This document shows positions 7,542 through 26,621 of a stretch of DNA of 32,539 bases, one piece after another. The notes under the pieces were generated by a model. It was given only the letters and a program-made list of their open reading frames with translations, searched no databases and had not been told where the DNA came from. Numbering within the stretch: the stretch's first letter is position 1; each line of letters begins with the position of its first letter. Origin of the DNA: a bacterium (GTDB lineage: Bacteria; UBP6; UBA1177); assembly GCA_017997475.1 (NCBI GenBank), contig JAGOEX010000005.1, positions 1 to 32,539 on the forward strand. The letters are read 5' to 3'. Both the position numbers and the translations under genes were made by a program.

Positions 7542-8327
7542 TTATTCGGCTTTTTGCTCTACAGGAACTTCAGTTGCAGGTTTTTCCTCTTCAGCGGCTT
7601 GCGGTTCTTCAGCAGGTTTCGGTTCTTCAACTTTTACAACTGTCTGAAGGGACGAAATTATATTTTCGTAGTTTGATTTTCTTTCAGGATACCTGTTTAA
7701 ATATTCCTGTGCAAAATCAAGAGCGTTTTTACCTTCACTGTTTTTGATCTCTCTGTCAGCACCCTTTTCAAGAAGTATTCTGACAACCTCATCATTAGAT
7801 CTTATAGAAGCTATCATCAGCGGCGTTTGACCCTTAAGATCAGTGATATTCAGATCAGCCCCTTTTTCGATGAAAAGTGAAACCAGTGTTGGAAAACCTG
7901 TCCATGACGCCCATGACAAAGCGGTCCAGCCATGCTCGTCTTTCAAGCCGATATCCGCACCTTTTTCAAGCAGCAGTTTTGCAGCAACAAGCCGTTTTTC
8001 TTCCTTGCTTTTTATTATTTGGCGATCATAAAAATTTACATATGCAACCCACATTATAGGAGATCTTTTCTGTTCATCCTGTTTGTTGGTCATGAGTTTT
8101 GTGAACTCTTCATATGTCTGTTTGCCCTGCGGATCTTTCTTAAAGCTTTCTTCACTTAAAGTGGTTATCATCATATCAATGTTGTCCTGAAGCGATGCAG
8201 TTATAAGGGGATCATCCTGAACCTGGCCTCTTAACTGATCAAATCCGACTTTGAATACGAGGGCGAACACTGTGCTGATGACCATGAGAATAAGGCCATC
8301 TCTTATTATTGCTTTATAATTTGTCAT
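7542..8327 (-). CDS. Membrane-anchored ankyrin-repeat protein
   Basis: A 261-aa protein starting MTNYKAIIRDG. One hydrophobic segment (about 11-28) probably anchors it. After a helical linker come about three ankyrin repeats (about residues 110-215; LLLEKGAD, GWTALSWAS, LFIEKGADLN, GQTPLMIAS, ILLEKGAD, GKNALDFA), then an acidic Pro/Glu/Ala-rich tail (about 232-261). Ankyrin repeats bind proteins; no enzymatic domain is seen. The start at 8327 is set by AGGAGGG, which overlaps the stop codon of the transporter upstream, so the two are translationally coupled. The ligand is unknown; a role tied to the transporter is inference. Confidence 0.85.
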   Translation of the reverse strand: MTNYKAIIRDGLILMVISTVFALVFKVGFDQLRGQVQDDPLITASLQDNIDMMITTLSEESFKKDPQGKQTYEEFTKLMTNKQDEQKRSPIMWVAYVNFYDRQIIKSKEEKRLVAAKLLLEKGADIGLKDEHGWTALSWASWTGFPTLVSLFIEKGADLNITDLKGQTPLMIASIRSNDEVVRILLEKGADREIKNSEGKNALDFAQEYLNRYPERKSNYENIISSLQTVVKVEEPKPAEEPQAAEEEKPATEVPVEQKAE

Positions 8328-8337
8328 TTTACCCTCC

Positions 8338-9765
8338 TTAATTCGCTTCTTCAGTTTGAGATGCCGTTTGCGGCTCTGAAGAAGGAGCTTCATCAATGTT
8401 TTCCTGAGAAAGAGATTTTTTAAGTGCAATTACAGCAACGGGGCTCATTATGGCAAGAGCAAAGTATATCATCCACATGAACTCAGGACTGTTGAGATAA
8501 TCAATATTCCCTGTGTCGATCTTTGCTCTTATTCCGTCATACGAAAGACCCGCGATAAGAAGCCCGCTTACAAAACCGTTCAATGGTCTGGCAATGAACA
8601 TCGGCAACGCAGACAGCCCCATGTAGGACGCGACTTTGTCTTTAGGAGCAACGGATGCGACATACTCAACAAATCTTGGAGAGAAAATAAGTTCTCCAAC
8701 TGCAAAAACAAGGATCTGAAGTACGATAACCCAGTAATATGCCTGATCGAGATTTCTGATGCCTGGAACTGCGGTTATCCATTCTCCTGGAACTGCAAGG
8801 AAAAGAAGGGAAACGGCTGAAATCCCCATGCCGACAACAAGAAGTTTAACAATATTGAATTTATTAAGTATCGGAATTACAAGGATAAGTCCCACAACTA
8901 TAATTATCGGGTTTAATGAGTTAACTGCACCAAGCTGAAAATCAGCATAAAGAGTTCTCAGATAATATTTGGGCATAACCATTGTCTGGTGAGTGAAAAC
9001 AAGCCGGACTCCGAGAGTAAGCACAAGGAAGAAAACAAGTTTCTGGAATGGCTTTTCCTTCCATACTTCTGCAAATATCTGTATCGGAGTTTTTGATTTT
9101 CCGGGTTCTTTCGGTTCTTCTTTTTCTTCACGGTTGCTTTCATTTATCATATATGCGGCAACAAAACAGACTGCGCTCATTACAAAACCGAAGGTAAAAA
9201 TAGCGAGATTGCCTTTAACTGTGCCGAGCCAGTTCCTGAATCCGTCGGTAACACCGAACCCTGCAATGGCGGCACCGATGTTCATTATCAGATAATAGAC
9301 ATTAAACCCGGTCGCTCTGTTCTCTTTTGAAGTAAAGTGACGAAGTGCAGTATTGGTGTTCGTGACAAGCACTGCTGTTCCAAGAGCCATGATCAGAAGC
9401 ATTGCGATTATGACATACTTCAGTGCATCTCCTGCAAACATTTCCGGTCCTACACCCATTCCAAGACGGCTTACCATCAAAAGAAATGCGGCAAAAAGGA
9501 ATGATTTTTTCACACCTATTGCATCGCAGATCGAACCGACTGTAAACATGAACGCGGTAATAAATAGAAAGAAAATCCCCTGCCATACACCGGCATCGTA
9601 ATCGCTGAATCCTACATTTTCAGTCAGATACATGGAAATGACAATAATAACTGAAAAATAAGATAGACCGTCAAAGAACTGAATAGCATTGACAAGCCAG
9701 AATTCCTTACTTACTGTTTTAAGGATCTTGAATTCTGAAAAATAGTTTTTCAACATTGCAAACAT
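8338..9765 (-). CDS. MFS transporter, POT/PTR-like
   Basis: A 475-aa polytopic transporter with about 12 hydrophobic segments and an MFS loop 2-3 region (GSICDAIGVKKSF). The first helix (FWLVNAIQFFDGLSYFSVIIVISMYL) and the A-to-G rich second half resemble proton-dependent oligopeptide transporters, but the ExxER motif of that family is not evident, so the substrate is open. The start ATG at 9765 has GGAGGAG 5-6 nt upstream; an in-frame TTG at 9780 is part of the SD region and is less likely. It is the first gene of a two-gene unit with the ankyrin protein, divergent from the FKBP gene. Confidence 0.8.
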   Translation of the reverse strand: MFAMLKNYFSEFKILKTVSKEFWLVNAIQFFDGLSYFSVIIVISMYLTENVGFSDYDAGVWQGIFFLFITAFMFTVGSICDAIGVKKSFLFAAFLLMVSRLGMGVGPEMFAGDALKYVIIAMLLIMALGTAVLVTNTNTALRHFTSKENRATGFNVYYLIMNIGAAIAGFGVTDGFRNWLGTVKGNLAIFTFGFVMSAVCFVAAYMINESNREEKEEPKEPGKSKTPIQIFAEVWKEKPFQKLVFFLVLTLGVRLVFTHQTMVMPKYYLRTLYADFQLGAVNSLNPIIIVVGLILVIPILNKFNIVKLLVVGMGISAVSLLFLAVPGEWITAVPGIRNLDQAYYWVIVLQILVFAVGELIFSPRFVEYVASVAPKDKVASYMGLSALPMFIARPLNGFVSGLLIAGLSYDGIRAKIDTGNIDYLNSPEFMWMIYFALAIMSPVAVIALKKSLSQENIDEAPSSEPQTASQTEEAN

Positions 9766-14114: not shown

Positions 14115-15641
14115 ATGAAAAAAATATTTCTTGATGGTGAAAAGCTGACGATCAGCGATGTAGTCGAGATCGCAAAAGGAAATGCAATTGTAGAAGTTGA
14201 AGGAAGCACAAGGGCGAAAATGGCAAAATGCCGCCAGTTCGTTGACTCGATCCTTGACGATGACAAGCCGGTTTACGGGATAAACACAGGGTTCGGGATT
14301 TTAAGCGATGTAAAGATCGCACATGAAAATCTTGAAGAGCTTCAGATAAATCTTATCAGAAGTCACGCTATTGCCGTGGGAACCCCTTATGACAAAGAAA
14401 CAGTCCGGGCCATAATGGTTCTTAGGGCAAATGTTCTTGCAAAGGGCTACAGCGGAATTACACTTGAAACTTTTGACAAACTCCTTGAAATAATTAACAA
14501 AAATGTTGTTCCTTATATTCCCTGTCAGGGGAGTGTCGGGGCGAGCGGCGATCTTGCACCATTGGCTCATCTTGCACTGGTTCTTGTGGGTGAAGGATTT
14601 GTGATAAATGAGCATGGCGAAAAGGTGGATACTGCTGTAATATTTAAAGAAAAAGGGATAACGCCCGTTGTTCTGAAAGCAAAGGAAGGGCTTGCTCTGA
14701 TCAATGGAACTCAGGCAATGACCGCAATAGGGTGTCTTACGGTGAGCAGAGTCAGAAATCTGCTGAAACTTGCTGATATTGCAGTTACTTCAACTCTTGA
14801 AGGGATAATGGGGACAGACAGAGCATTTGATAGAAAAGTGAATGTTGTGAGAGCTCACCGCGGACAGATGGAAGTTTCAGAAAATGTGCTTAGAATAATT
14901 AAGGATTCTGAAATCAGGGATAGTCATACATGCTGTTCAAAGGTTCAGGATGCCTATTCTCTCCGCTGTGCTCCGCAGGTTCACGGAGCGGTCAGAGATG
15001 CATTAAGACATGCCGAATCTGTCATAACTACTGAAATTAATTCATCAACTGACAATCCGCTCATTTTTCCTGAAGAAAAAGAGACCATTTCCGCCGGCAA
15101 CTTCCACGGTGAACCGATAGGACTTGTGATGGATTATCTCACAGCGGCAGTTTCAGAGATCGGAAGCATTTCGGAAAGAAGGATCGAGCAGATGATAAAC
15201 CCTGTCTTTTCGCAGGCCCCGGCATTTCTGGTAAAAGAGAAAGGGCTTAACAGCGGGTTTATGATCGCCCATGTCACAGCGGCAAGCATTGCAAGTGAAA
15301 ATAAAACTCTCTGCTTCCCTGCGACAGTTGATTCGATTCCCACCTCAGCAGGCAAGGAAGATCATGTCAGCATGGGGACAACAGCCGCAAGAAAATGTGC
15401 TCAAGTTGTTGATAACACAGTGAAAATTATATGCATGGAGATTTTTACCGCAATGCAGGCGATAGATTTCAGAAAACCGCTTATCCCTGGAGCAGGAGTA
15501 AAAGCCGCATATGAACTTATAAGGAAAACAGTGCCTTTCATGGAAAAAGACCGGTTCATGTATCCCATGTTCGAAAATGTCCTGAAAAACGAATATCTCA
15601 TAGTCGAAGAAGTCGAAAAAGTTACTGGGGTTCTTAACTGA
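14115..15641 (+). CDS. hutH: Histidine ammonia-lyase (HutH)
   Basis: A 508-aa HAL/PAL-family enzyme that deaminates histidine to urocanate. The MIO cofactor triad Ala143-Ser144-Gly145 lies in GSVGASGDLAPLAHL. Other active-site motifs are YGINTGFG (Tyr54), RSHAIAVG (His84), LINGTQAM, RCAPQVHGAV, GNFHGEP and AGKEDHVSMG, which fit histidine rather than phenylalanine or tyrosine lyases. GGAGG is 7 nt before ATG 14115; the TTG at 14109 is too close to the SD. No hutU, hutI or formimino-transfer gene is nearby, so it stands alone. It ends 12 nt from the convergent YigZ gene with no terminator seen. Confidence 0.93.
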   Translation: MKKIFLDGEKLTISDVVEIAKGNAIVEVEGSTRAKMAKCRQFVDSILDDDKPVYGINTGFGILSDVKIAHENLEELQINLIRSHAIAVGTPYDKETVRAIMVLRANVLAKGYSGITLETFDKLLEIINKNVVPYIPCQGSVGASGDLAPLAHLALVLVGEGFVINEHGEKVDTAVIFKEKGITPVVLKAKEGLALINGTQAMTAIGCLTVSRVRNLLKLADIAVTSTLEGIMGTDRAFDRKVNVVRAHRGQMEVSENVLRIIKDSEIRDSHTCCSKVQDAYSLRCAPQVHGAVRDALRHAESVITTEINSSTDNPLIFPEEKETISAGNFHGEPIGLVMDYLTAAVSEIGSISERRIEQMINPVFSQAPAFLVKEKGLNSGFMIAHVTAASIASENKTLCFPATVDSIPTSAGKEDHVSMGTTAARKCAQVVDNTVKIICMEIFTAMQAIDFRKPLIPGAGVKAAYELIRKTVPFMEKDRFMYPMFENVLKNEYLIVEEVEKVTGVLN

Positions 15642-15653
15642 AGATCTTAAATA

Positions 15654-16271
15654 TTACGGTTTGTGAAAAACGATCTTTCCACCGCTTTTCTCAATTAGGT
15701 CGTCTTTGAATTTCTCGACTGTCCCGATAGGTATAAATATTTCCAGCAAAATGCCTTTTTCGTTGTAACTATTTGAAATAATTTCAATTCCTGAAAAGTG
15801 GCTGATATGGTTCATCACCAGTCCTGTGAGATCGAACGATGCTTCCACTGTTACGGTTTTCTTTATCTCCACTGTTGCAATTGCGGCTTTTTCAAGTACT
15901 TCTCTTGCTGATCCGCCGTATGCCCTTGTGAGTCCTCCAGTTCCGAGTTTTGTTCCTCCGTAATATCTGACAATTGTGACAAGCACATTGAATAGCTCTT
16001 TTCTCAATATTTCATTGTATATAGGCAGTCCCGCAGTTCCCGAAGGTTCTCCGTCATCACTATATCTGAAAAGTTTTATTTCACCTTCTCCGAGAATGTA
16101 ACCATAACAGACATGTGTTGAATCGTAGTGCTCTTTCTTCTGTGTTTTCAGGATGTTATCTATATCATCTTTCGTTTTGACATGGAAACAGTATGAAATG
16201 AAACGACTTCCCTTTTCCTTTATTTCGACTGGTCCTGCCTGCTCAAAGACTGTTTTGTAGCGTTCAATCAT
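15654..16271 (-). CDS. yigZ: YigZ/IMPACT-family protein
   Basis: A 205-aa UPF0029 (IMPACT) protein. The hallmark YSDDGEPSGTAGLPIY lies near 70-85 and VRYYGGTKLGTGGL near 102-115, followed by the DUF1949-type C-terminal domain. Eukaryotic IMPACT controls Gcn2; the bacterial role is not clear. Its ATG overlaps the stop of the preceding small gene by 4 nt (ATGA), which makes it the last member of a five-gene minus-strand operon. Confidence 0.9.
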   Translation of the reverse strand: MIERYKTVFEQAGPVEIKEKGSRFISYCFHVKTKDDIDNILKTQKKEHYDSTHVCYGYILGEGEIKLFRYSDDGEPSGTAGLPIYNEILRKELFNVLVTIVRYYGGTKLGTGGLTRAYGGSAREVLEKAAIATVEIKKTVTVEASFDLTGLVMNHISHFSGIEIISNSYNEKGILLEIFIPIGTVEKFKDDLIEKSGGKIVFHKP

Positions 16272-16555
16272 ATCTGGTCGAAGATCTTCTCAACTGCCGA
16301 TCTTATGTGAGGAGTAAAAAATCTGTAAAGAAGAGGTATCTCGACAACGATACTTACACAACCGTTGTTTAAAACAAGTGTTCCCCTGACGGTACGACCC
16401 TTAAATTCGATCTTTTTTGAATTTTTATCGGGGATCACCTCAATTTTTTCAACTCCGATCTTTTTTTCAAGTATGTGCTTAAGGTTGTTTTCAAGCCACT
16501 CCCAGATCTCTTTATCTTGCTTAGAGCTTTGAAAATTCATTTCGATTTTAGGCAT
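16268..16555 (-). CDS. Small conserved protein, possibly PHA-granule-region-like
   Basis: A 95-aa soluble protein. Its pattern is an amphipathic helix (about 13-32), beta strands around IEVIPDKNSKKIEFKGRTVRGTLVL, then VSIVVEIPLLYRFFTPHIRSAVEKIF. This layout (a G-x-l/v strand region, v-i-l/p segment and closing helix) resembles the putative polyhydroxyalkanoate system family, but the match is by eye and weak. It starts 5 nt after the Lon-like gene and overlaps yigZ, so it is certainly translated from the operon if the operon is expressed. Confidence 0.6.
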   Translation of the reverse strand: MPKIEMNFQSSKQDKEIWEWLENNLKHILEKKIGVEKIEVIPDKNSKKIEFKGRTVRGTLVLNNGCVSIVVEIPLLYRFFTPHIRSAVEKIFDQI

Positions 16556-16560
16556 CTTTA

Positions 16561-18939
16561 CTATTTTACCTCGTTGAGCTGCCAGATCTTTTTATCAACT
16601 TTCTCAAATACTGAGCCCGCAGTAAATGTACCGTTGCTGTTCTTTTTTCCTGCTGGAATTCCTGTAAGGATTTCAATTCCTTCAAGAATGTTCTTGATAG
16701 CATAAATATGGAATTTCTCTTTTCTGACAGCTTCGACAATTTCATCAGACAGATTAAGATTTTCAATGTTCTGAATAGGGATAATAACTCCCTGATCTCC
16801 CGTGAGCCCTTTTATTTTGCATATCTCGAAAAACCCTTCTATCTTTTCGTTTACTCCGCCTATCGGCTGAATGTCTCCCATCTGGTTGATGGAGCCGGTT
16901 ACTGCAATGTGTTGTTTTATCGGGATCTCAGACAATGCGGAAAGGAGCGCATAAAGCTCGGTGGAGCTTGCACTGTCACCGTCAACTCCGCCATAACTCT
17001 GCTCAAAAGCGATTGATGCAATGATTGAAAGCTGTTTGTCCTGAGCAAAGATGCTGCCAAGATAACCCGCCAATATCATTGCTCCTTTGTCATGAATAGC
17101 TCCGGACAGGCGAGATTCTCTTTCAATGTTGACGATCCCTTTTCTTCCTGCAAAAACCTTTGCTGTTATTCTTGAGGGGATGCCGAAACTGAAGTCACCG
17201 ATCGAATATACTGCAAGTCCGTTTATCTGACCGGTCTTTTTTCCTTTGACATCGATGAGAATGGTGCCTCTTTTTATTGATTCATAGTAGTGTTCCTTGA
17301 ACCGTGCATGTCGTTTCTCCCTGCTCTCGATCGCAGTTCTGACAAGTTCCTCGTCCACCATCTTTTTATTCTTTCTTTTACCCCAGAAAACTGATTCTAC
17401 AATAATTTCAACTATATCGCTTGCATGTATCCTGTATTTTTTCTGGTCTTCCGATTTTCTTGAACTGTAATGGAGAAGCCGTCTGATAGCGGAAAGGTCG
17501 AAAGGAAGATCGCAATCTTCATTGACAACCCGTGAAATGAAACCGATCAACGAATCTGTTGTGTCAGCATTAATATCAATAGTCGAGTCAAAGTCGGCTT
17601 TTACCCTGAATATCCTTCTGAAATCAGGATCATGGTTGTAGAGAAGATGGTAGATATAATCATCGCCGATCAGGATGACTTTTACATCAAGTGTGACAGG
17701 TTCCGGGTCGGGAATGGTATTGACCCTGTACTTGAAATCTATGTCGATATCTCCCATTTTGAGAGAGCGGTTCCTTATCGCCCTTTTGAGAGCTGTCCAT
17801 GCATAATAGTTTTTAAGGATGTCGTTCGCCTGGATGATCAGGAATCCGCCGTTCGCCTTGTGAAGTGCGCCCGGCTTCATTTTTGTGAAATCTGTGAAAA
17901 GGGAGTTGTGCATCTCTTCAAATTCGAAATAACCCATTATGCTCTGGAATGTCGGAGTTGTTTCATAAATTACCGGAGCCCCTTTCAGATCTTTGTTGTT
18001 CACCAGCAGATTAACTTTGTATTCCTTAAAATCGGGAACAACTGTCTTTGACGGATCGGCTTTGCCTTCCTCAATGTCCCTGTAAATAAAAAACTCATCG
18101 AAATTATTGACGATATGTTCCGCAAGATCTTCAAGGAAAAGATCAAAATGCTCGTTTTTAGAGTGTTTTTTCTTGAGCTCTCTCAAAGGTTCCGAAACGA
18201 TCAGCCGTACCATGGTCTGACGGAGATTGGTCATTTTTTCCTTATATTCTTTTTCAAGACCTCTTTCTCTATGGAAGTAAGCTATCAGTTTTTCCTGAAG
18301 TGCCTCTTCGTTTTCTCTGATGACCTCTTTTTCTTCATCGCTAAGAGTATCAAACTTCTCCTTGTCAATAGGATTCCCTTCAACTATCGGGTTTATTACC
18401 AGTCCGTTTTGTGTCGACTTAAGAAGGAAACTCAGTTCAAGAGCTTCTTTTTCTATTTCAAGATAGTTCTTCTGACTTTCTTCCTGATACCACCTTACAA
18501 CTTCACTCTTTTTTATCTCAAAACTTTCACTTTCAAGCTGTCTCGGGATCTGAAAAATAAAATAATCAAGAAGGTCTTCCATATCCTTGACAAATCTTTC
18601 ACCGGTGCCGGCTTTCATGTAGAGAAGTTTAGGCGCATCAGGGTTTTTAAAGTTATAAACATAGAGCATATCATCCGGAGTGCCCATTTTCAGAGCGATA
18701 TCCTCAACATGTTTTTTTACATTTGATGTTTTACCGGTTCCGGTATCGCCGGCTACATATATGTTGAACCCCTTTTTGTTTATAGTCATTCCGAAGTCCA
18801 GTGCCTCAAAGCCCCTTTTCTGAAAAACGAGCTGGGAGACGGGCTTGATGTTTTTTGTTGTTTTTCCCTTATATTTTGAGAGATCAGGGTAGTATCTCAA
18901 CAATTCGGGTTTAAGTCTTTTCTTAGTTATCAGTTCCAT
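16561..18939 (-). CDS. Lon-like AAA+ ATP-dependent protease (S16)
   Basis: A 792-aa AAA+ protease of the LonB-related/LonH-like group, without the classical LonA N-terminal domain. Walker A is GDTGTGKT (64-71). A long insertion rich in charged coiled coil (about 110-290) lies in the ATPase module, followed by GGFLIIQANDILKN near 375. The S16 protease domain has catalytic Ser656 (GDSASST) and Lys699 (GGVNEK); the 43-residue spacing equals that of E. coli Lon Ser679/Lys722. GGAGGG lies before the ATG. It is coupled with the PATAN and TPR membrane proteins upstream, which may be partners or substrates (inference). Confidence 0.92.
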   Translation of the reverse strand: MELITKKRLKPELLRYYPDLSKYKGKTTKNIKPVSQLVFQKRGFEALDFGMTINKKGFNIYVAGDTGTGKTSNVKKHVEDIALKMGTPDDMLYVYNFKNPDAPKLLYMKAGTGERFVKDMEDLLDYFIFQIPRQLESESFEIKKSEVVRWYQEESQKNYLEIEKEALELSFLLKSTQNGLVINPIVEGNPIDKEKFDTLSDEEKEVIRENEEALQEKLIAYFHRERGLEKEYKEKMTNLRQTMVRLIVSEPLRELKKKHSKNEHFDLFLEDLAEHIVNNFDEFFIYRDIEEGKADPSKTVVPDFKEYKVNLLVNNKDLKGAPVIYETTPTFQSIMGYFEFEEMHNSLFTDFTKMKPGALHKANGGFLIIQANDILKNYYAWTALKRAIRNRSLKMGDIDIDFKYRVNTIPDPEPVTLDVKVILIGDDYIYHLLYNHDPDFRRIFRVKADFDSTIDINADTTDSLIGFISRVVNEDCDLPFDLSAIRRLLHYSSRKSEDQKKYRIHASDIVEIIVESVFWGKRKNKKMVDEELVRTAIESREKRHARFKEHYYESIKRGTILIDVKGKKTGQINGLAVYSIGDFSFGIPSRITAKVFAGRKGIVNIERESRLSGAIHDKGAMILAGYLGSIFAQDKQLSIIASIAFEQSYGGVDGDSASSTELYALLSALSEIPIKQHIAVTGSINQMGDIQPIGGVNEKIEGFFEICKIKGLTGDQGVIIPIQNIENLNLSDEIVEAVRKEKFHIYAIKNILEGIEILTGIPAGKKNSNGTFTAGSVFEKVDKKIWQLNEVK

Positions 18940-18966
18940 ATTTCCCTCCGTTTCGGAATAAATCGT

Positions 18967-19953
18967 TTATTTGTCATCACTTTTTTCAGTACCGGACAGA
19001 TCAAATTCATGCTCCAAGATCATTCCTGACCTGATCAGATCTTTGGTGTCTGTTTCATTTCCGCTCTCAAATGACATGAGAGAAGACATAAGCGATATTT
19101 TAAAAAAATAAAAATCTTTGACACTTCTGTGCTGTTTTCTGGTTTCAAATGTTGTTGTCATTGTTGCAAGATAAAGGAAAACAAATATTCCTGCTAAAAC
19201 AAATGTTCTGAAAAGATACAGCACTCCGGTTTTTAAGATCACAGGTGTTGCAAACCTGCTGCGCATTGTCCATCCGCCGCTTAAAAAATCCTCAGCCGCT
19301 TTTGAGATGTATTGTATGAAATCTATCTCTGTAACAAGAAAGTTCTGTAGAAATGACTTGTTAACTGAAAAATAAGCCGCATCTTTGTTTGTCAGAATGT
19401 CACAGTTCATTGAAAGAAGGATCTTTTTGACGGTTTTCAGTTTTTCATCCGACATTGAAGCAAGCTGCTGAGCGTTTCTTATGTCAACAGATTTGACACC
19501 GTGAACCTCTCTGACACTGTTTCTGAGTTCAAAAGAATAAATTCCTTTTCTGGCAAAAAAACCCTCAAGTATGTTCATTCTCACAGCCGCACTGATGATC
19601 TTTGAATATAAAAGCATTGAGACATGACCTTCTTCAATGAGTATTTCAAGAAGACTTTTCATCAGTTTCGATTTCATTTTTTCACATTTTACGACAGTCT
19701 CTCTTGAAACGATCTCAGCTTGTTTTATCGTCGAAAGGATAAGCTGGTCCATTCTTTCAATTGAATTTTCAGCATAAATGATGATTCCTTCCTTGAAATA
19801 ATAGCGGTATTCTTTTTTGCCTGTTTTTATTTTAAGCATTCCTGAATACTTGGGAAGAGCAATGTCCCTTAAAATGTCAAAAAAAGATGTATTTTGTATA
19901 GAACCGCTCAATACTATCTGGTTTGATGCCGTTTTTTCCAGAACAACAGCCAA
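18967..19953 (-). CDS. DUF4388 (PATAN)-domain membrane protein
   Basis: A 328-aa protein whose N-terminus (about 12-62: LSGSIQNTSFFDILRDIA...YSGMLKIKTGKKEYRYYFKEGIIIYAE) fits the DUF4388/PATAN domain found in bacterial signalling proteins. A helical middle follows, a single TM segment at about 244-264, and a short acidic C-terminal part. No kinase or receiver domain is attached. The start is TTG at 19953, set by a GGGGGG SD about 7 nt upstream inside the end of the preceding gene; only 1 nt separates it from that gene's stop, so coupling is strong. Domain call moderate. Confidence 0.75.
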   Translation of the reverse strand: MAVVLEKTASNQIVLSGSIQNTSFFDILRDIALPKYSGMLKIKTGKKEYRYYFKEGIIIYAENSIERMDQLILSTIKQAEIVSRETVVKCEKMKSKLMKSLLEILIEEGHVSMLLYSKIISAAVRMNILEGFFARKGIYSFELRNSVREVHGVKSVDIRNAQQLASMSDEKLKTVKKILLSMNCDILTNKDAAYFSVNKSFLQNFLVTEIDFIQYISKAAEDFLSGGWTMRSRFATPVILKTGVLYLFRTFVLAGIFVFLYLATMTTTFETRKQHRSVKDFYFFKISLMSSLMSFESGNETDTKDLIRSGMILEHEFDLSGTEKSDDK

Positions 19954-19954
19954 A

Positions 19955-21727
19955 TCAATCCCCCCTTGATACGAAGAATCCGCGCACGATTGATATGAGA
20001 TATATTACAGCTATCAGTGCTGTTAAAATAAATGTCATTGTGCCGGAATCCCCTGTATTTATGTTGAAAACAAGCCCGGTGTTCCTGTTAACGATCAGTA
20101 TTGAAAGAAAAACCGTTATAAAAAGATACGCAGAGCCCTCAAGAACTTTATTCGAAAATATTAGACCCCCGCCCGGACACATGAAATTAAATATGGATGT
20201 GTAGACAGAGTGTCTTGCAAAGAACCTGTTTCTCCTGACCTCATATTTTTCCTTTTCACCTTTTAAGAAAACTTCAGGATCGGCTTTCATCAGTTTGCAG
20301 ACAACGCACACATGCTGGCCGCCTGCATTGCATTTTGAACACATGACGATACCGCATTCCAGACATCTTGAGAGAGATATTCCTTTAATATAGTTCATTC
20401 GTACAAGCAGAAGCATCATATAGAAGAACAGGGCGCTTAAAATAAAAAGAAAAAATCTTACCCAGTTTTCAAATCTGTCTCCTGTCTTTCCGCTTGAAAC
20501 ATATCTCCATGCCCTGAACATTCCCGGATATTCAATATGAGGATATGAAAGAGTTACGGCACCTGCCGTTTCAAGGAGTTGTTTTTCAAAATTTGTCGCA
20601 TCTTCGGTCATTCCGCCTTCGTACATTGTTTTTGCAAGGTTATAGCCGATGTGGATATTGCCGGATTCATCATAGGCGGTCTTCAGATAGCTGACTGCCT
20701 CTTTATAGTTTCCAAGTGCCGCGAGGGAAAGCCCGAGGATATTATAAATAGATGTTTTTATTTTTCCGTCTGATATGATGTCGAGTTCTTTTTTCAGGTG
20801 AAACACAGCTTTTTCATGCTCATCTTTATAAAAATGAATGAACCCTCTAGCCATCTGACCGCCGGGAGCTGAAAGTTCTATTTTCCCGATGTCCGAGGAT
20901 GACGGCGAGTAAACGGCATACAGATTGTTCATGGCTGTCTTTCTGTCTATGCTCGGATCTTCTGAAGCTCCCGTGAGAATTATTCCGCCATGGGCGAGAA
21001 GCGCAATAATGAACACTGCATACAGTATTATTTTCTCCCTCAGAACCGAAACTCCTGTCAGAAATACCAGAAATGTCATAATGACAAGGAAAAGATTGTG
21101 TTCATTCTGAACAAGTATCCACGAAGAGAGCGCTACAACTAAAGCAAGTGACACGGCATAGAATTTTGAATGACCTGCAAGATGCATATACCGGTGGATG
21201 ATCAGAGAAGGATATTTCAATCCGATGATGAGAAAGTATATGAAGATGAAAACTAGACATGCTTTAAGTATGGTGTTTAAAACGGAATAGAAAAAAGCGT
21301 CTCTTGGAGGAAAACAGAAAAAAGCTTTGATCATTTCTCTTGTTTCACTCAAGATCCTTGCCGTTTTAAAAGGTGCGAACTTTATAAGCCGTGATATGAA
21401 ATGAAGGCGTGCTTCAGGAAGATCGGGGGAGAATTTTACAGCGAGGTCAGCAGCGACAAGTTGAACCGCAGAAGAGGAATCAATTGTAGATCGTATAAGA
21501 AAAAGAGAGCATTCAAAACAGTTGGGAATGTGGGATATCTCTTTTTCCTTGAGATACATGGCTGTTTTTTCAAGAAGCATGCTTTCTTCACCGCTTATCA
21601 GGGCATCTTTGACATCTTTGGTAAACCTTCTGCCGTCTATGAATGAATGTTCTGAATTTTCCGCACAAATATGCTGTATGTTCAAAAATATGAAAAAGAA
21701 AAAAGTAAAACTAAAGAAAATTCTCAT
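19955..21727 (-). CDS. TPR-containing polytopic membrane protein with Cys cluster
   Basis: A 590-aa protein. It has a signal or first TM segment (2-22), helical repeats, two TM segments and a cluster near 150-265. TPR-like repeats cover about 293-395 (ALGNYKEAVSYLKTAYDES and neighbours), and a TM lies near 425-447. A six-Cys cluster follows (C455-x2-C458-x4-C463-x2-C466-x7-C474-x2-C477), likely binding zinc. The C-terminal part has further TM segments and a conserved-looking CPGGGLIF motif near 517-524. Similar TPR/zinc-ribbon proteins occur in deltaproteobacteria; the function is unknown to me. It heads the five-gene operon. The SD is poor (AAGG about 12-15 nt before the ATG). Confidence 0.75.
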   Translation of the reverse strand: MRIFFSFTFFFFIFLNIQHICAENSEHSFIDGRRFTKDVKDALISGEESMLLEKTAMYLKEKEISHIPNCFECSLFLIRSTIDSSSAVQLVAADLAVKFSPDLPEARLHFISRLIKFAPFKTARILSETREMIKAFFCFPPRDAFFYSVLNTILKACLVFIFIYFLIIGLKYPSLIIHRYMHLAGHSKFYAVSLALVVALSSWILVQNEHNLFLVIMTFLVFLTGVSVLREKIILYAVFIIALLAHGGIILTGASEDPSIDRKTAMNNLYAVYSPSSSDIGKIELSAPGGQMARGFIHFYKDEHEKAVFHLKKELDIISDGKIKTSIYNILGLSLAALGNYKEAVSYLKTAYDESGNIHIGYNLAKTMYEGGMTEDATNFEKQLLETAGAVTLSYPHIEYPGMFRAWRYVSSGKTGDRFENWVRFFLFILSALFFYMMLLLVRMNYIKGISLSRCLECGIVMCSKCNAGGQHVCVVCKLMKADPEVFLKGEKEKYEVRRNRFFARHSVYTSIFNFMCPGGGLIFSNKVLEGSAYLFITVFLSILIVNRNTGLVFNINTGDSGTMTFILTALIAVIYLISIVRGFFVSRGD

Positions 21728-21794
21728 TTATCAGCATCCTTAACAATCAAAGAGATATATCATATTGAGAATAAGTTATCAAATTTTTGTTTTT

Positions 21795-21823
21795 TTGACA
21801 TGGATTTGCTTTGTATCTATAAT
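21795..21823 (+). promoter_or_regulatory. Exact-consensus sigma-70 promoter
   Basis: TTGACA (21795-21800), 17-bp spacer, TATAAT (21818-21823). Both hexamers and the spacing are full consensus. It drives the leader ORF and glycosyltransferase gene; no terminator or obvious operator lies between. Confidence 0.85.
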
Positions 21824-21858
21824 CACGAAGTTTTTTTTAGATCATTTTGGGAAATGCA

Positions 21859-21909
21859 ATGAATAATGAAAAAGTTAGTGCAGAATTTGGCGGAGATTCA
21901 GTAAAATGA
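21859..21909 (+). CDS. Possible 16-aa leader peptide of the glycosyltransferase gene
   Basis: The short ORF MNNEKVSAEFGGDSVK begins at 21859 with GGGA 6 nt upstream. Its TGA (21907-21909) overlaps the ATG of the glycosyltransferase gene as ATGA. The main gene has a badly spaced GGAG (10 nt), so coupled translation through this leader would make sense. Expression is not proven. Confidence 0.4.
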   Translation: MNNEKVSAEFGGDSVK

Positions 21910-24116
21910 GAGAAATTATATTTAAATATCCAAAGACTTTTCTGGCTTTGATATCGGCATTGGTATTTATGCCTCTGATAGGCAGTTATCCTGTTTTAGG
22001 TCAGTGGGAACCGCATTACGGCAGGGTTGCGATGGAGATGATGGCAAGCGGTTCATGGGACTGGTTCCTTGATCCTGTCTATCTCGGAAAGCACAATTTC
22101 TGGTCAAAACCTATATTCTGTTTCTGGATGGTTATCCCGTTCATGAAAATTCTGGGACCGACCGAGCTGGCGCTGCGACTTCCCTTTGCCATAAACGGGA
22201 TTTTATTCGTTCTGCTGGTATATTACATCACAGAAAAGCTTTTCAAAGACAGGGCGAGATCGCTTGCGGCGGGCTTCATAACAATATTCATGCCTTACAC
22301 ATATCTTATAAGCCGGCAGTTTATGTGGGACATTGCTTTTGTGACATTCCTGACCGGCTCGATAGGGTTTCTGTTCATAGGTCAGCGTGACGGGAACAAG
22401 AAACTTTTACGGCTCTCATATCTTTTCATGGGTCTTGGAATGCTGACGAAAGGACTTTTGTCTGTTTTTTTTCCCGTTGCGATAATTCTGATATGGATGT
22501 TTGTAACGCTTGATTATTCCAAAAATACAAATGAAATATTTTCAGATGCATGGAAATTTGTCAGATCTCTCCGCCCGTTTGAAGGAGCCGGAATATTCCT
22601 CGCTGTAAGCGGCTGGTGGTATATTTACATGGGGATCAGACACGGAATGCCTTTTTTCAAGGAGTTTTTCGGAGAGCATCATTTCGGCCGGCTTGAAGGG
22701 ACCATCAACAAACCCGACGGTCCTTTTGAGTTTTATATCTGGCAGCTCAGCATAGGGACTTTTCCATGGATAGGTTTTTTAATTCCGGGGCTTTATTTCA
22801 GCGCTTTGAAGATGAAGGAAAAGAAAGAGGAAGGATATGTCATCATCTCATTTTTCTTCATGTTCCTGTTTTTCACCCTTGCTGCGACAAAGTTCCCTCA
22901 CTATATTTTTCCAGTCGTTCCGTTCATGTCGATCATAGTTTCAGTCCTGTTCGTTGAGCTTTTCAGAAACGAAAAGATGGGCAAACTTTATCCGGTAATT
23001 GCCGTAGTTGCGGCGCTTATAGTAGGTATCGTCGGAAAGGATCTCGGAACGGGAATGAACTATGCCGATCTTATCTATATCATTACGACACATAAAGTTC
23101 AGACATGGTTCGGCAGAGTTTTTGACATGCTTCCGTATCTTGCTGTTTTTGTTCCGGTCATGGTTGTTTTTGTGCTTGTTCCCTTAATAGCTCCTTTAAA
23201 AAAAGTGCTGATGAAAATATCTGTTGCCGGTTTTGTTTTAACAACTGTCGCATGGTCGGGATATATTAATTTTTACTGGATTCCCAGAATGCTTGATGTG
23301 TTCACACCCAAGCTTCTTGTTGAGAAATATTTTGAACTGAAAAAAGATGGCGACATAATAGTTGACTATGACAACTGGAAGAACCGGTCAATGTATTTTT
23401 ATCTGGGGCTTGATGAGCATTTGAACAGGGTTGATAAAGTTGAACAAATTCAAAAGCTTATAGAAAAACACCCTGAAAACACTGTCTATATCACAACAAA
23501 GGACAAAAAGGTGTCTGAGCTCAGGTCGGCACTCCTTTCAAAACCCGGTGTTCCTATAAAGAAGATCATGGATGATGCCGTTGACACTTATATGGAAATA
23601 GAAATGTATTCCGCTTCAATGAAAGATCTCAACAGTGCGGCCATGGAGACATGGAAGGAAAACATTGTGCCCGAAGAGGAACTTCCTAAAAATCTCAAAA
23701 AAATAAATTCCACGATCGGTCAGGGTTCAATAGAAATAGTTGGATATACCATAAATAAAGACCGGTTCGATCCAAATGAGGAAATGATCCTTACGGTTTA
23801 TTATAAGATATTGAAAAAAATAGAGAAAAGCTGGAAAGTGTTTTTTCATTTTGATGTTTACAGCGGTGCTCTCCCGCACAGTTGGAAGCTTGATGATTTC
23901 CCGCAGAAAGGGTTTTATCCAACAAATAAATGGGAGGAGGGAGTCATTCTTAAGGACGAATTTGTCACAACAATTCCCAAAAGTCATCCGGGAGGCGGAA
24001 TCAAGATATATACCGGTTTTTACATCAATAAGGAAAGAATGGAGATCGACAACGAATCTTTCAATGACGGACAGAAACGATTCATCCTCGGAACTTTCAA
24101 TGTCAACATCAAATGA
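21906..24116 (+). CDS. ArnT/PMT-type (GT39-like) membrane glycosyltransferase
   Basis: A 736-aa GT-C fold enzyme that would transfer a sugar from a polyprenyl-phosphate donor on the outer face of the inner membrane. The first periplasmic loop has QWEPHYGRVAMEMM (about 33-46), equivalent to the acidic catalytic motif of the PMT/ArnT group, and KPIFCFWM nearby. About 11-13 TM segments reach to residue 460. A soluble C-terminal part (about 470-736) ends in a beta-rich domain (GSIEIVGYTINKDRF, HFDVYSG). The acceptor could be lipid A, protein or another glycan; the context does not decide. ogt starts within its stop codon. Confidence 0.85.
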   Translation: MREIIFKYPKTFLALISALVFMPLIGSYPVLGQWEPHYGRVAMEMMASGSWDWFLDPVYLGKHNFWSKPIFCFWMVIPFMKILGPTELALRLPFAINGILFVLLVYYITEKLFKDRARSLAAGFITIFMPYTYLISRQFMWDIAFVTFLTGSIGFLFIGQRDGNKKLLRLSYLFMGLGMLTKGLLSVFFPVAIILIWMFVTLDYSKNTNEIFSDAWKFVRSLRPFEGAGIFLAVSGWWYIYMGIRHGMPFFKEFFGEHHFGRLEGTINKPDGPFEFYIWQLSIGTFPWIGFLIPGLYFSALKMKEKKEEGYVIISFFFMFLFFTLAATKFPHYIFPVVPFMSIIVSVLFVELFRNEKMGKLYPVIAVVAALIVGIVGKDLGTGMNYADLIYIITTHKVQTWFGRVFDMLPYLAVFVPVMVVFVLVPLIAPLKKVLMKISVAGFVLTTVAWSGYINFYWIPRMLDVFTPKLLVEKYFELKKDGDIIVDYDNWKNRSMYFYLGLDEHLNRVDKVEQIQKLIEKHPENTVYITTKDKKVSELRSALLSKPGVPIKKIMDDAVDTYMEIEMYSASMKDLNSAAMETWKENIVPEEELPKNLKKINSTIGQGSIEIVGYTINKDRFDPNEEMILTVYYKILKKIEKSWKVFFHFDVYSGALPHSWKLDDFPQKGFYPTNKWEEGVILKDEFVTTIPKSHPGGGIKIYTGFYINKERMEIDNESFNDGQKRFILGTFNVNIK

Positions 24117-25356: not shown

Positions 25357-26298
25357 TCAAAGCGAAATCTGATTAATTTTTGAGCTTATTGTGTTCATGT
25401 ATTTTTCTTTCATTTCTTCATTTAGAAATGAGTTTTGAATTATTTTTGAACTTTGAGAAAGTGAACTAATTATCCTGTCGATGATGGATTCTTTAACCTT
25501 TTGAATTAATTGCAGGTTTTTGGCAAGGTGATCGAAGTCAGATTTTTTAAGCTTTGATTTTTTTCCGTTTATTGTGAGTGCTGATTCTTCTTTGTCAGAT
25601 GGAATAACTATTGCGGTATTAAGAAGATCATATGCGGGTGCAAGCTCTCGAAAATCGGGCAAACGATAAAAAAGTGAATAGTTCTTTAAATGCATGTCGG
25701 CGTTCCCTGTCAGAAACGAAAAAACAACCATTTCAAAAAGCCGTTGAAGATCGTATCCTGAGTTTGAAGAGTGTTTCTCAATGATTTTTCCAATCTGTTC
25801 AACTGATCCCCTGTATTTATCTTCGGTCATCCTTTCCTGAAGCTGGCACATATCTTCCATGTGAAGCTTTCCCGATTTTGATCTGTCGATCCTTTTTGTG
25901 ATATATGCAAGTTCACCGCTTTGAAATTTTATCAAGGCGTGGGGAACGGTTTTAATTCCGCAGTGCTCTGCAAGGTGCATTGTAAGATGTTCATTTTCAG
26001 GAAGAAATGGATAGGTCGGTGATGACGGTTTTAAAATATATGATCCCCAAAGTCCGACAATCGTGAGTTTTCTCCCTTTTTCTTTGACCGATTTTGATAA
26101 ATGAAGTGAAAGTTTCGGCTGAACTCCGGTAAGAGTAATGCTTTTTAATACAGTTTCTTCAGCGATCTTGTTGATCTCATCAAGTTTATATTCAAGAACT
26201 GGAGCAGCATCAGAGCCGAAAAACTTTTTAGAACAGATCGGGTGATATTCAGTCCCGTTTATATGAGGTTTCCCACAGATAAGACAGATATTTGTCAT
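25357..26298 (-). CDS. hipT: HipT toxin kinase of a HipBST system
   Basis: A 313-aa HipA-core Ser/Thr kinase without the N-subdomain 1 that full HipA carries. Features: a putative zinc knuckle C5-x2-C8...H19-x2-C22; the Gly-rich loop T55-L-T57-G-V-Q-P-K62; ATP lysine K90 in YILKP; catalytic N199-A-D201-M-H-L-K-N206; metal Asp224 in APAYDL. In E. coli HipT the two loop positions are serines (SIS) that are autophosphorylated and control toxicity; here they are Thr-Leu-Thr. E. coli HipT targets TrpS; the target here is unknown. The ATG overlaps the hipS stop (ATGA). Confidence 0.9.
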   Translation of the reverse strand: MTNICLICGKPHINGTEYHPICSKKFFGSDAAPVLEYKLDEINKIAEETVLKSITLTGVQPKLSLHLSKSVKEKGRKLTIVGLWGSYILKPSSPTYPFLPENEHLTMHLAEHCGIKTVPHALIKFQSGELAYITKRIDRSKSGKLHMEDMCQLQERMTEDKYRGSVEQIGKIIEKHSSNSGYDLQRLFEMVVFSFLTGNADMHLKNYSLFYRLPDFRELAPAYDLLNTAIVIPSDKEESALTINGKKSKLKKSDFDHLAKNLQLIQKVKESIIDRIISSLSQSSKIIQNSFLNEEMKEKYMNTISSKINQISL

Positions 26299-26621
26299 TG
26301 TTTTTCCCTCCGTACTGAAACTGCGCCGATAACATCACTGCAACAGGCAAGAAGAAGCTCCATTCTGTCTTTTGAATTGATCTTCCAGCTTTTCCATGCA
26401 ATATCGAGGAGCCATCCTTCCGGAATAAGTCCGTCAAAAAACGGAAACATAACCGGTGATTCATATGGCTCTTTTCTTAAAGGAATTGTGCAACTTATGG
26501 CAATTGAACCGCTTTTGGAAACATAATCAGGATCATAAGTGAATCTGTACCCCGTTTCGGTTTCTTCAATAATTCCCGCAAACTCATCATGCATGAAAAC
26601 AAATCCGGTTTTTCGGCTCAT
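26295..26621 (-). CDS. hipS: HipS antitoxin of a HipBST system
   Basis: A 108-aa protein equal to the N-subdomain 1 of HipA: GFVFMHDEFAGIIEE...YRFTYDPDY at the start, then ISCTIPLRKEPYES and FFDGLIPEGWLLDIAWKSW. In characterised HipBST systems HipS, not HipB, is the main antitoxin. A Trp of HipS that enters the HipT active site has been described; Trp70 in PEGW is a candidate, from memory of that work. The gene sits between hipB and hipT with 4-nt ATGA overlaps on both sides, so stoichiometry is set by coupled translation. Confidence 0.88.
   Translation of the reverse strand: MSRKTGFVFMHDEFAGIIEETETGYRFTYDPDYVSKSGSIAISCTIPLRKEPYESPVMFPFFDGLIPEGWLLDIAWKSWKINSKDRMELLLACCSDVIGAVSVRREKQ

Follow-up and report, generated by a model that had tools for sequence, protein, structure and literature searches.

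The PATAN domain (DUF4388 in Pfam) is known, in the literature searched, mainly from cyanobacterial pilus regulators. For the PATAN-CheY proteins PixE, PixG and LsiR of cyanobacteria, action on the type IV pilus apparatus has been reported or proposed (PMC7690835, PMC9090330, PMC5812497), and in Synechocystis regulators of this type reportedly bind to PilB1, the pilus motor (PMC7690835, PMC9090330). A 2017 review gives the function of the domain as unknown (PMC5812497). Three further kinds of protein bear on the system described here: the MshEN receptors of cyclic di-guanosine monophosphate (c-di-GMP), the type II secretion pseudopilin GspG, and the LonC proteases, among which MtaLonC was found to show no ATPase activity (PMC3391209). 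The subject of this study is a cluster of five genes in 32,539 nt of DNA (the window; contig JAGOEX010000005.1, positions 1 to 32,539) of a bacterium of the candidate phylum UBP6, whose assembly, GCA_017997475.1, is a draft of 2.86 Mb in 323 contigs.

Open reading frame (ORF) calling and translation place all five genes on the minus strand, running from 21727 to 15654. In the 5' to 3' direction they are:

19955 to 21727, minus strand: gene A (TPRC), encoding a membrane protein of 590 aa with multiple transmembrane (TM) segments; the predicted local distance difference test score (pLDDT) of its model is 84
18967 to 19953, minus strand: gene B (D4388), 328 aa from a TTG start, with a PATAN/DUF4388 domain, one predicted TM segment and a short C-terminal tail; model pLDDT 80
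16561 to 18939, minus strand: lonC, encoding an S16 protease of LonC type, 792 aa, with Walker A GDTGTGKT (residues 64-71), Ser656/Lys699 and the insertion CKIKGLTG
16268 to 16555, minus strand: PGR, encoding a PHA_gran_rgn-like protein of 95 aa
15654 to 16271, minus strand: yigZ, a gene of the yigZ/IMPACT family (UPF0029), 205 aa, overlapping PGR by 4 nt

From upstream to downstream the intergenic gaps calculated from the ORF coordinates are 1, 27, 5 and -4 nt, as the first-pass annotation, made from the letters of the window, had given them. The five genes are presumably transcribed together. A scan of positions 15500-22000 for promoters and terminators found no excess over shuffled sequences (15 vs 16.6 and 4 vs 4.7).

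The following observations suggest, with a probability of about 0.5, that the cluster is a composite operon, in which A and B form a regulatory pair that spans the envelope and is of the kind that serves type IV pili or type II secretion, and a LonC/PGR module has become linked to them in this order of bacteria. Adjacency was tallied for each gene pair in 25 genomes of the order. A and B adjoin in 24 of them, and in the exception, G020, a contig break leaves the two genes on separate contigs. B adjoins lonC in all 10 genomes outside the genus g2 (7 genera, 3 families) and in none of the 15 genomes of g2, which belongs to the same family as the window and keeps A next to B in all 15. Because A-B and lonC are on different contigs in 10 of the 15 g2 genomes, the flanks of both were inspected, and in every genome more than 1.4 kb of sequence, without the other gene adjoining, is present on one side or on both. 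In four g2 genomes (G001, G009, G013 and G015) lonC is about 7 kb from the pair and on the opposite strand. The first-pass annotation had held that scattering of the genes in close relatives would leave only chance proximity. Such scattering is found in g2, where A and B nevertheless stay together, and not in the remaining genomes of the order.

The other joints of the cluster differ in strength. PGR adjoins lonC in 14 of the 15 g2 genomes (in the remaining one lonC is broken) and in 6 of the 10 genomes outside g2; PGR adjoins yigZ in 7 of those 10 and in none of the 15 g2 genomes. The lonC gene is broken by a stop codon in G004 and by contig ends in G005, and both genomes were scored as non-adjacent to PGR though the second piece adjoins it (in G004, contig C1, 183210-185551, the two pieces are separated by TAA). 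By these counts the A-B joint is tight, the lonC-PGR joint fairly tight, and the others looser, yigZ being the loosest member of the cluster. Adjacency of B and lonC in 10 of 10 genomes over seven genera and three families means that this link is selected or inherited and is no local accident. Across the three families that keep the order A-B-lonC, identity of the gene A protein drops to 21-23%. In g2 the protease would have become separated from the pair.

Outside the phylum the pair recurs without the protease in the flanks fetched. A profile of the C-terminal part of the gene A protein (A7) matches in 94 of 386 genomes. The neighbourhoods fetched contain 65 A homologues, of which 62 are full-length and three (L203, L205 and L209) are short fragments excluded from the full-length counts; the neighbourhoods of 12 weak, partial matches (E 4e-8 to 7e-6) were also excluded. 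A8 was made without the UBP6 paralogues L142 and L143 and without L159, L165 and L187, which contig ends truncate. A DUF4388 domain starts -22 to +100 nt beyond gene A and on its strand in 55 of the 65 homologues, all 55 of them full-length (55/62). Pairing is measured here from the start of the domain; from the mechanical ORF starts the count is 42/65, most of the remaining pairs being hidden by over-long mechanical starts. Outside the phylum a DUF4388 gene directly follows gene A in 50 of 54 full-length homologues, under 38 family labels. Eight of these 50 pairs had entered profile A7; among the 52 places outside the order that were absent from it, three of which are short fragments, 42 are paired. 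DUF4388 genes number 0-27 per genome (63 genomes), so that adjacency to gene A by chance would be rare and is a poor explanation. The A-B pair is ancient. The protease looks like a companion retained only in the group to which the window belongs: the fetched flanks of the pairs outside the phylum (mostly 5-7 kb per side, shorter at contig ends) contain no convincing LonC, and on neither side do Lon families appear in the list of the 25 commonest neighbour families. The only matches to the LonC profile there, L167 and L194, were rejected as weak, at about 19 bits. As lonC is not adjacent in g2, and as the pair recurs outside the phylum with no LonC in the fetched flanks, LonC is dispensable to the conserved unit.

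In three loci outside the phylum (L171, L190 and L193) gene A is followed by a lone gene for a GspG-like tail, without a PATAN domain. This reduction of the partner suggests that the gene A protein may need the tail rather than the PATAN domain. In one further locus outside the phylum, L195, no partner was detected. Family f3 carries a second, shorter gene A paralogue without the TPR part (L142:7088-8527 and L143:1816-3204), which is also followed by a DUF4388 domain.

The domain content of the partners was examined in 52 aligned sequences, namely 47 DUF4388 proteins from outside the phylum, 2 tail-only proteins and 3 from UBP6. Outside the phylum the partner consists of a PATAN domain with a helical insert, a TM segment and a periplasmic tail. 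The NCBIfam model of the MshE-related c-di-GMP motif matches the insert in 20 of the 52 at E<=0.001, and in L138 and L166 the match is above the curated cut-off. Searched against the PDB, a profile of the partners finds the N-terminal domains of PilF, PilB and MshE, with a best E of 1.8e-25, and also GspG pseudopilins at E about 2e-3. In the tail Pfam T2SSG matches 12 of the 52 at E<=0.01, above its cut-off in L138 and L147, and a model built for the tail matches 30 of 41 held-out partners at E<=0.001. The stretch between insert and TM segment is winged-helix-like by weak matches only (MarR_2 in 3/52). Most of the DUF4388 matches listed measure either about 300 or about 470 nt, a difference that presumably reflects the absence or presence of the helical insert.

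The gene B protein of the window passes the Pfam gathering score for PF14332 (45.7 vs 25 bits), in agreement with the DUF4388 domain that the first-pass annotation had assigned to one of the membrane proteins. Two of its parts correspond to those of the distant partners:

19558 to 19752, minus strand: residues 68-132, the helical insert within the PATAN domain, which lines up in register with the MshEN-like c-di-GMP fold that distant partners carry; the motif is degenerate
18994 to 19122, minus strand: C-terminal tail, residues 278-320, at the place where distant partners carry the GspG-like domain; only helices are predicted here

The two 24-residue RLGxx...Q motifs of MshEN leave no half-motif, by either pattern, in window gene B or in 12 other UBP6 sequences; these patterns are strict and also miss 39 of the 52 partners, including L166, which passes the NCBIfam cut-off. 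The NCBIfam motif model has no match in window gene B at E<=0.1 and matches 2 of 21 UBP6 members, with a best E of 0.017. In the tail of window gene B there is no Pfam T2SSG match at E<=1, and the tail model gives E 5.6. When models are superimposed, the insert fits the c-di-GMP domain of PilF (GSPII-B) with a Z score of 3.9 and a root-mean-square deviation of 2.3 over 57 residues, a likeness that is suggestive only. Loss of c-di-GMP synthesis from UBP6 was rejected as the origin of the degenerate motif, GGDEF genes being found in all 15 genomes of the order searched. In this order neither the nucleotide motif nor the greater part of the pseudopilin-like domain can still be recognised, so the window pair is likely to be a nucleotide-independent derivative that would act by protein contacts.

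The gene A protein is the constant member of the pair. Three parts of it can be placed in the window:

20564 to 20860, minus strand: TPR helices, residues about 290-388, from Pfam and the predicted structure
20297 to 20365, minus strand: C-terminal cysteine cluster, C455-C477
20135 to 20176, minus strand: PGxG...EG membrane motif, residues 518-531

The predicted layout is a signal peptide, a periplasmic N-terminal domain with C70 and C73, four TM segments, the periplasmic TPR domain, a TM segment, a cytosolic cluster resembling a zinc ribbon, and two further TM segments. This topology, which sets the TPRs on the outer side of the membrane and the cysteine cluster on the inner side, was read by eye from hydropathy and positive-inside charge counts; in the homologue L138 the four-TM reading requires that two short helices were merged by the scan. 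In Pfam the protein matches TPR models only, every one below its cut-off. A Foldseek search with its model found nothing at E<=0.001, TPR structures appearing from E 1.6e-3. The protein had been credited with six cysteines; six do lie in the C-terminal cluster, and the total is 12, C70/C73 forming a second pair that is invariant in the 20 aligned sequences of the UBP6 order. The pattern CxxC...CxxC is present in all 62 full-length homologues (with C or H as the last ligand), although the profile that found them contains it. The six-cysteine pattern is kept in 37 of the 62, and only 6 have a CxxC ahead of the C-terminal part. C455, C458, C474 and C477 are the only cysteines invariant in a 14-row cross-phylum alignment. 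The PG of the membrane motif is kept in at least 90% of 58 aligned rows, and PGxG in 40 of the 62 homologues.

The action of the pair can be sketched as follows. The gene A protein would place its TPR domain in the periplasm and its zinc-ribbon-like cluster in the cytosol, and would probably scaffold the gene B protein. The latter would have its PATAN domain with the MshEN-like insert in the cytosol and one TM segment; its periplasmic part would, in most of the lineages sampled, be a GspG pseudopilin-like domain. It could thus relay a cytosolic signal across the membrane to a machine of the pilus/type II secretion type, or to another envelope machine, or it could read the state of that machine. 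The ancestral input was probably c-di-GMP, and in this order the input is probably contact with a protein. An output to pili is proposed because PATAN proteins are reported to bind PilB1 in cyanobacteria and because of the pseudopilin-like tail. LonC and PGR would form a second, cytosolic module, which most genera of the order keep beside the pair and one genus has apart from it. A narrower version of this scheme is doubtful: that A and B form a widespread two-gene transmembrane signalling system, in which a PATAN-MshEN/TM/pseudopilin-like receptor and its TPR/zinc-ribbon partner relay c-di-GMP signals (or protein signals, once the motif is lost) through the inner membrane to machinery for pili or secretion, and which was rewired in this order from nucleotide input to coupling with LonC and the small partner.

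Several observations weigh against an envelope-spanning pair of the pilus/secretion kind. The motif model fails at E<=0.001 in 32 of the 52 partners, and 11 of the 41 held-out partners lack a match to the tail model. In the structural comparison (VIA) unrelated rows tie with the PilF match of gene B at Z 3.9; the highest row, at Z 5.0, is a sigma-type chain of RNA polymerase aligned over the tail, and there is no pseudopilin among the rows listed. Foldseek with the gene B model found nothing at E<=0.001. In family f4, of the same phylum and outside the order, no partner of gene A was detected in the three genomes (L176, L178 and L179). T2SSF (365 of 386 genomes) and GGDEF (70 of 70) are so near to universal that co-occurrence decides neither the pilus output nor the c-di-GMP input. 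Genomes that retain a half-motif have higher GGDEF counts (12 vs 36 genomes, Mann-Whitney p 0.011), a post hoc comparison uncorrected for relatedness and not relied on. Neighbours were counted as at most two same-strand, mechanically called ORFs of at least 110 aa within 2.5 kb on each side of 50 loci outside the phylum, the 25 commonest families being listed. The commonest downstream are 7TM-HD (12/80) and PhoH (11/80), rather than pilus genes; upstream (n=75 genes) there are DUF1844 (5), Robl_LC7 (3) and Arf (3). In a single case, L147, a T2SSE/MshEN ATPase gene lies nearby on the other strand.

These neighbours lend some weight to the idea that the pair governs an exopolysaccharide or envelope-homeostasis machine instead of pili, through MshEN control of the kind seen in NfrB or through a housekeeping link to phoH/7TM-HD, which is a real though minority possibility. 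In NfrB c-di-GMP is bound by the MshEN domain, which is inferred to activate the glycosyltransferase of that protein (PMC8669469), and the NfrB model is matched by 9 of the 52 partners at E<=0.001, the match in L138 and L166 covering the MshEN part and falling far below the NfrB cut-off. Glycosyltransferase families, however, account for only 2 of the 80 downstream genes among the 25 families listed, phoH/7TM-HD are found at about a fifth of the loci, and the pseudopilin-like tail indicates machinery of the secretion or pilus type.

The fate of lonC bears on the two remaining explanations. The first-pass annotation had suggested a system of regulated proteolysis linked to the membrane; on this view the TPR/zinc and PATAN proteins would recruit substrates to LonC or gate it. 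The conserved co-location of B and lonC over three families, the persistence of lonC some 7 kb from the pair in part of g2, and the retention of the Ser/Lys dyad and Walker A all agree with such a role. However, B and lonC are parted in every g2 genome, no convincing LonC lies in the fetched flanks of the pairs outside the phylum, and in f4 lonC adjoins other genes. The co-location stands, the protease proves separable from the pair, and regulated proteolysis is improbable as an account of the cluster and unlikely as the core function of A and B. It is just as improbable that the genes merely share a promoter and are inherited together, with no functional tie of the pair to lonC-PGR-yigZ, an explanation that overlaps with the composite operon and differs from it in LonC only. 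The free regrouping of yigZ and PGR, and the ability of g2 to live with the split, are in its favour; the maintenance of A-B-lonC over three families, despite so low an identity of gene A, speaks against it.

By its sequence the protease is of LonC type. In Pfam the product consists of AAA_32, LonB_AAA-LID, LonC_helical and Lon_C. The Ser-Lys dyad of the subfamily lies in the Lon_C domain at the residues first assigned, S656 and K699, both invariant in 14 aligned LonC homologues. The insertion CX3GLX(G/E) after the catalytic Lys, which defines LonC (PMC3391209, section 5), is present as CKIKGLTG at residue 707, and the second insertion (hydrophobic-X2-A-hydrophobic, in helix alpha5) as IVEAV, opposite VLEAV of TTC1975 when aligned by eye. 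As to the lack of canonical AAA+ motifs and of ATPase activity that also marks the subfamily, Walker A is canonical here, but the segment resembling Walker B, GGFLIIQAN, has no acid. TTC1975 and MtaLonC are the best solved relatives. E. coli YcbZ is presumably of the LonC type as well. A recent screen found two-hybrid signals between RNase E and this putative ATP-dependent protease (PMC13232886). The PGR protein scores below the gathering cut-off of PHA_gran_rgn (PF09650; 23.8 vs 26.6 bits), hence "PHA_gran_rgn-like" only. In f4 a malQ-like gene, identified by eye, lies beside lonC in L077 (1653-3167) or one gene away from it in L079 (11340-12833), and in L148 the PGR homologue (7812-8099) is just upstream of a DnaJ-like gene (8304-9416, by eye) and not of lonC.

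Elsewhere in the window, a sigma-70 promoter that fits the consensus in 12 of 12 positions (TTGACA-17-TATAAT) lies at 21795-21823 on the plus strand, upstream of a divergent gene (21906-24116) that by eye resembles a membrane glycosyltransferase. Two adjacent minus-strand ORFs, 25357-26298 and 26295-26621, look by eye like the C-terminal and N-terminal parts of a split HipA kinase.

Compared with the known systems, B differs from the PATAN-CheY regulators in that no receiver domain was found in it, in its predicted membrane anchor and periplasmic tail, and in its constant TPR/zinc-ribbon partner gene. Its distant homologues resemble the MshEN receptors (MshE, the N-domains of PilF/PilB, and NfrB) in matching both the motif model and the PDB domains, but the motif is placed inside a PATAN domain without an ATPase or glycosyltransferase and is unrecognisable in the window copy. 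They resemble the major pseudopilin GspG in their T2SSG-like tail, which, however, follows a TM segment in mid-protein and not a prepilin N-terminus, and which in the window is predicted to have helices only. The protease shares with MtaLonC and TTC1975 both LonC-specific insertions and a Walker B-like segment without the catalytic acid, and differs from them in its canonical Walker A and its greater length (792 aa vs chains of 732 aa). In Myxococcus a TPR protein, SgmX, and the GTPase MglA form a polarity module tied to type IV pili (PMC11580455), and roadblock and Arf-family genes flank some A-B pairs (L145). SgmX, with 14 TPRs, is a different protein from that of gene A, and the likeness is one of description. 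No description of the A-B pair was found in the literature searched, which mostly left subscription papers outside its coverage. The pairs link the helical insertion of PATAN, by sequence, to the MshEN c-di-GMP fold, and they show it sharing a protein with a periplasmic domain that resembles a pseudopilin, beside a constant partner gene. They thus offer a point of entry for tests on a membrane protein family found across many bacterial families and on the role of its zinc-ribbon/TPR partner. PATAN, MshEN, GspG and LonC are all of known kinds; it is their combination in a constant two-gene unit that would be new.

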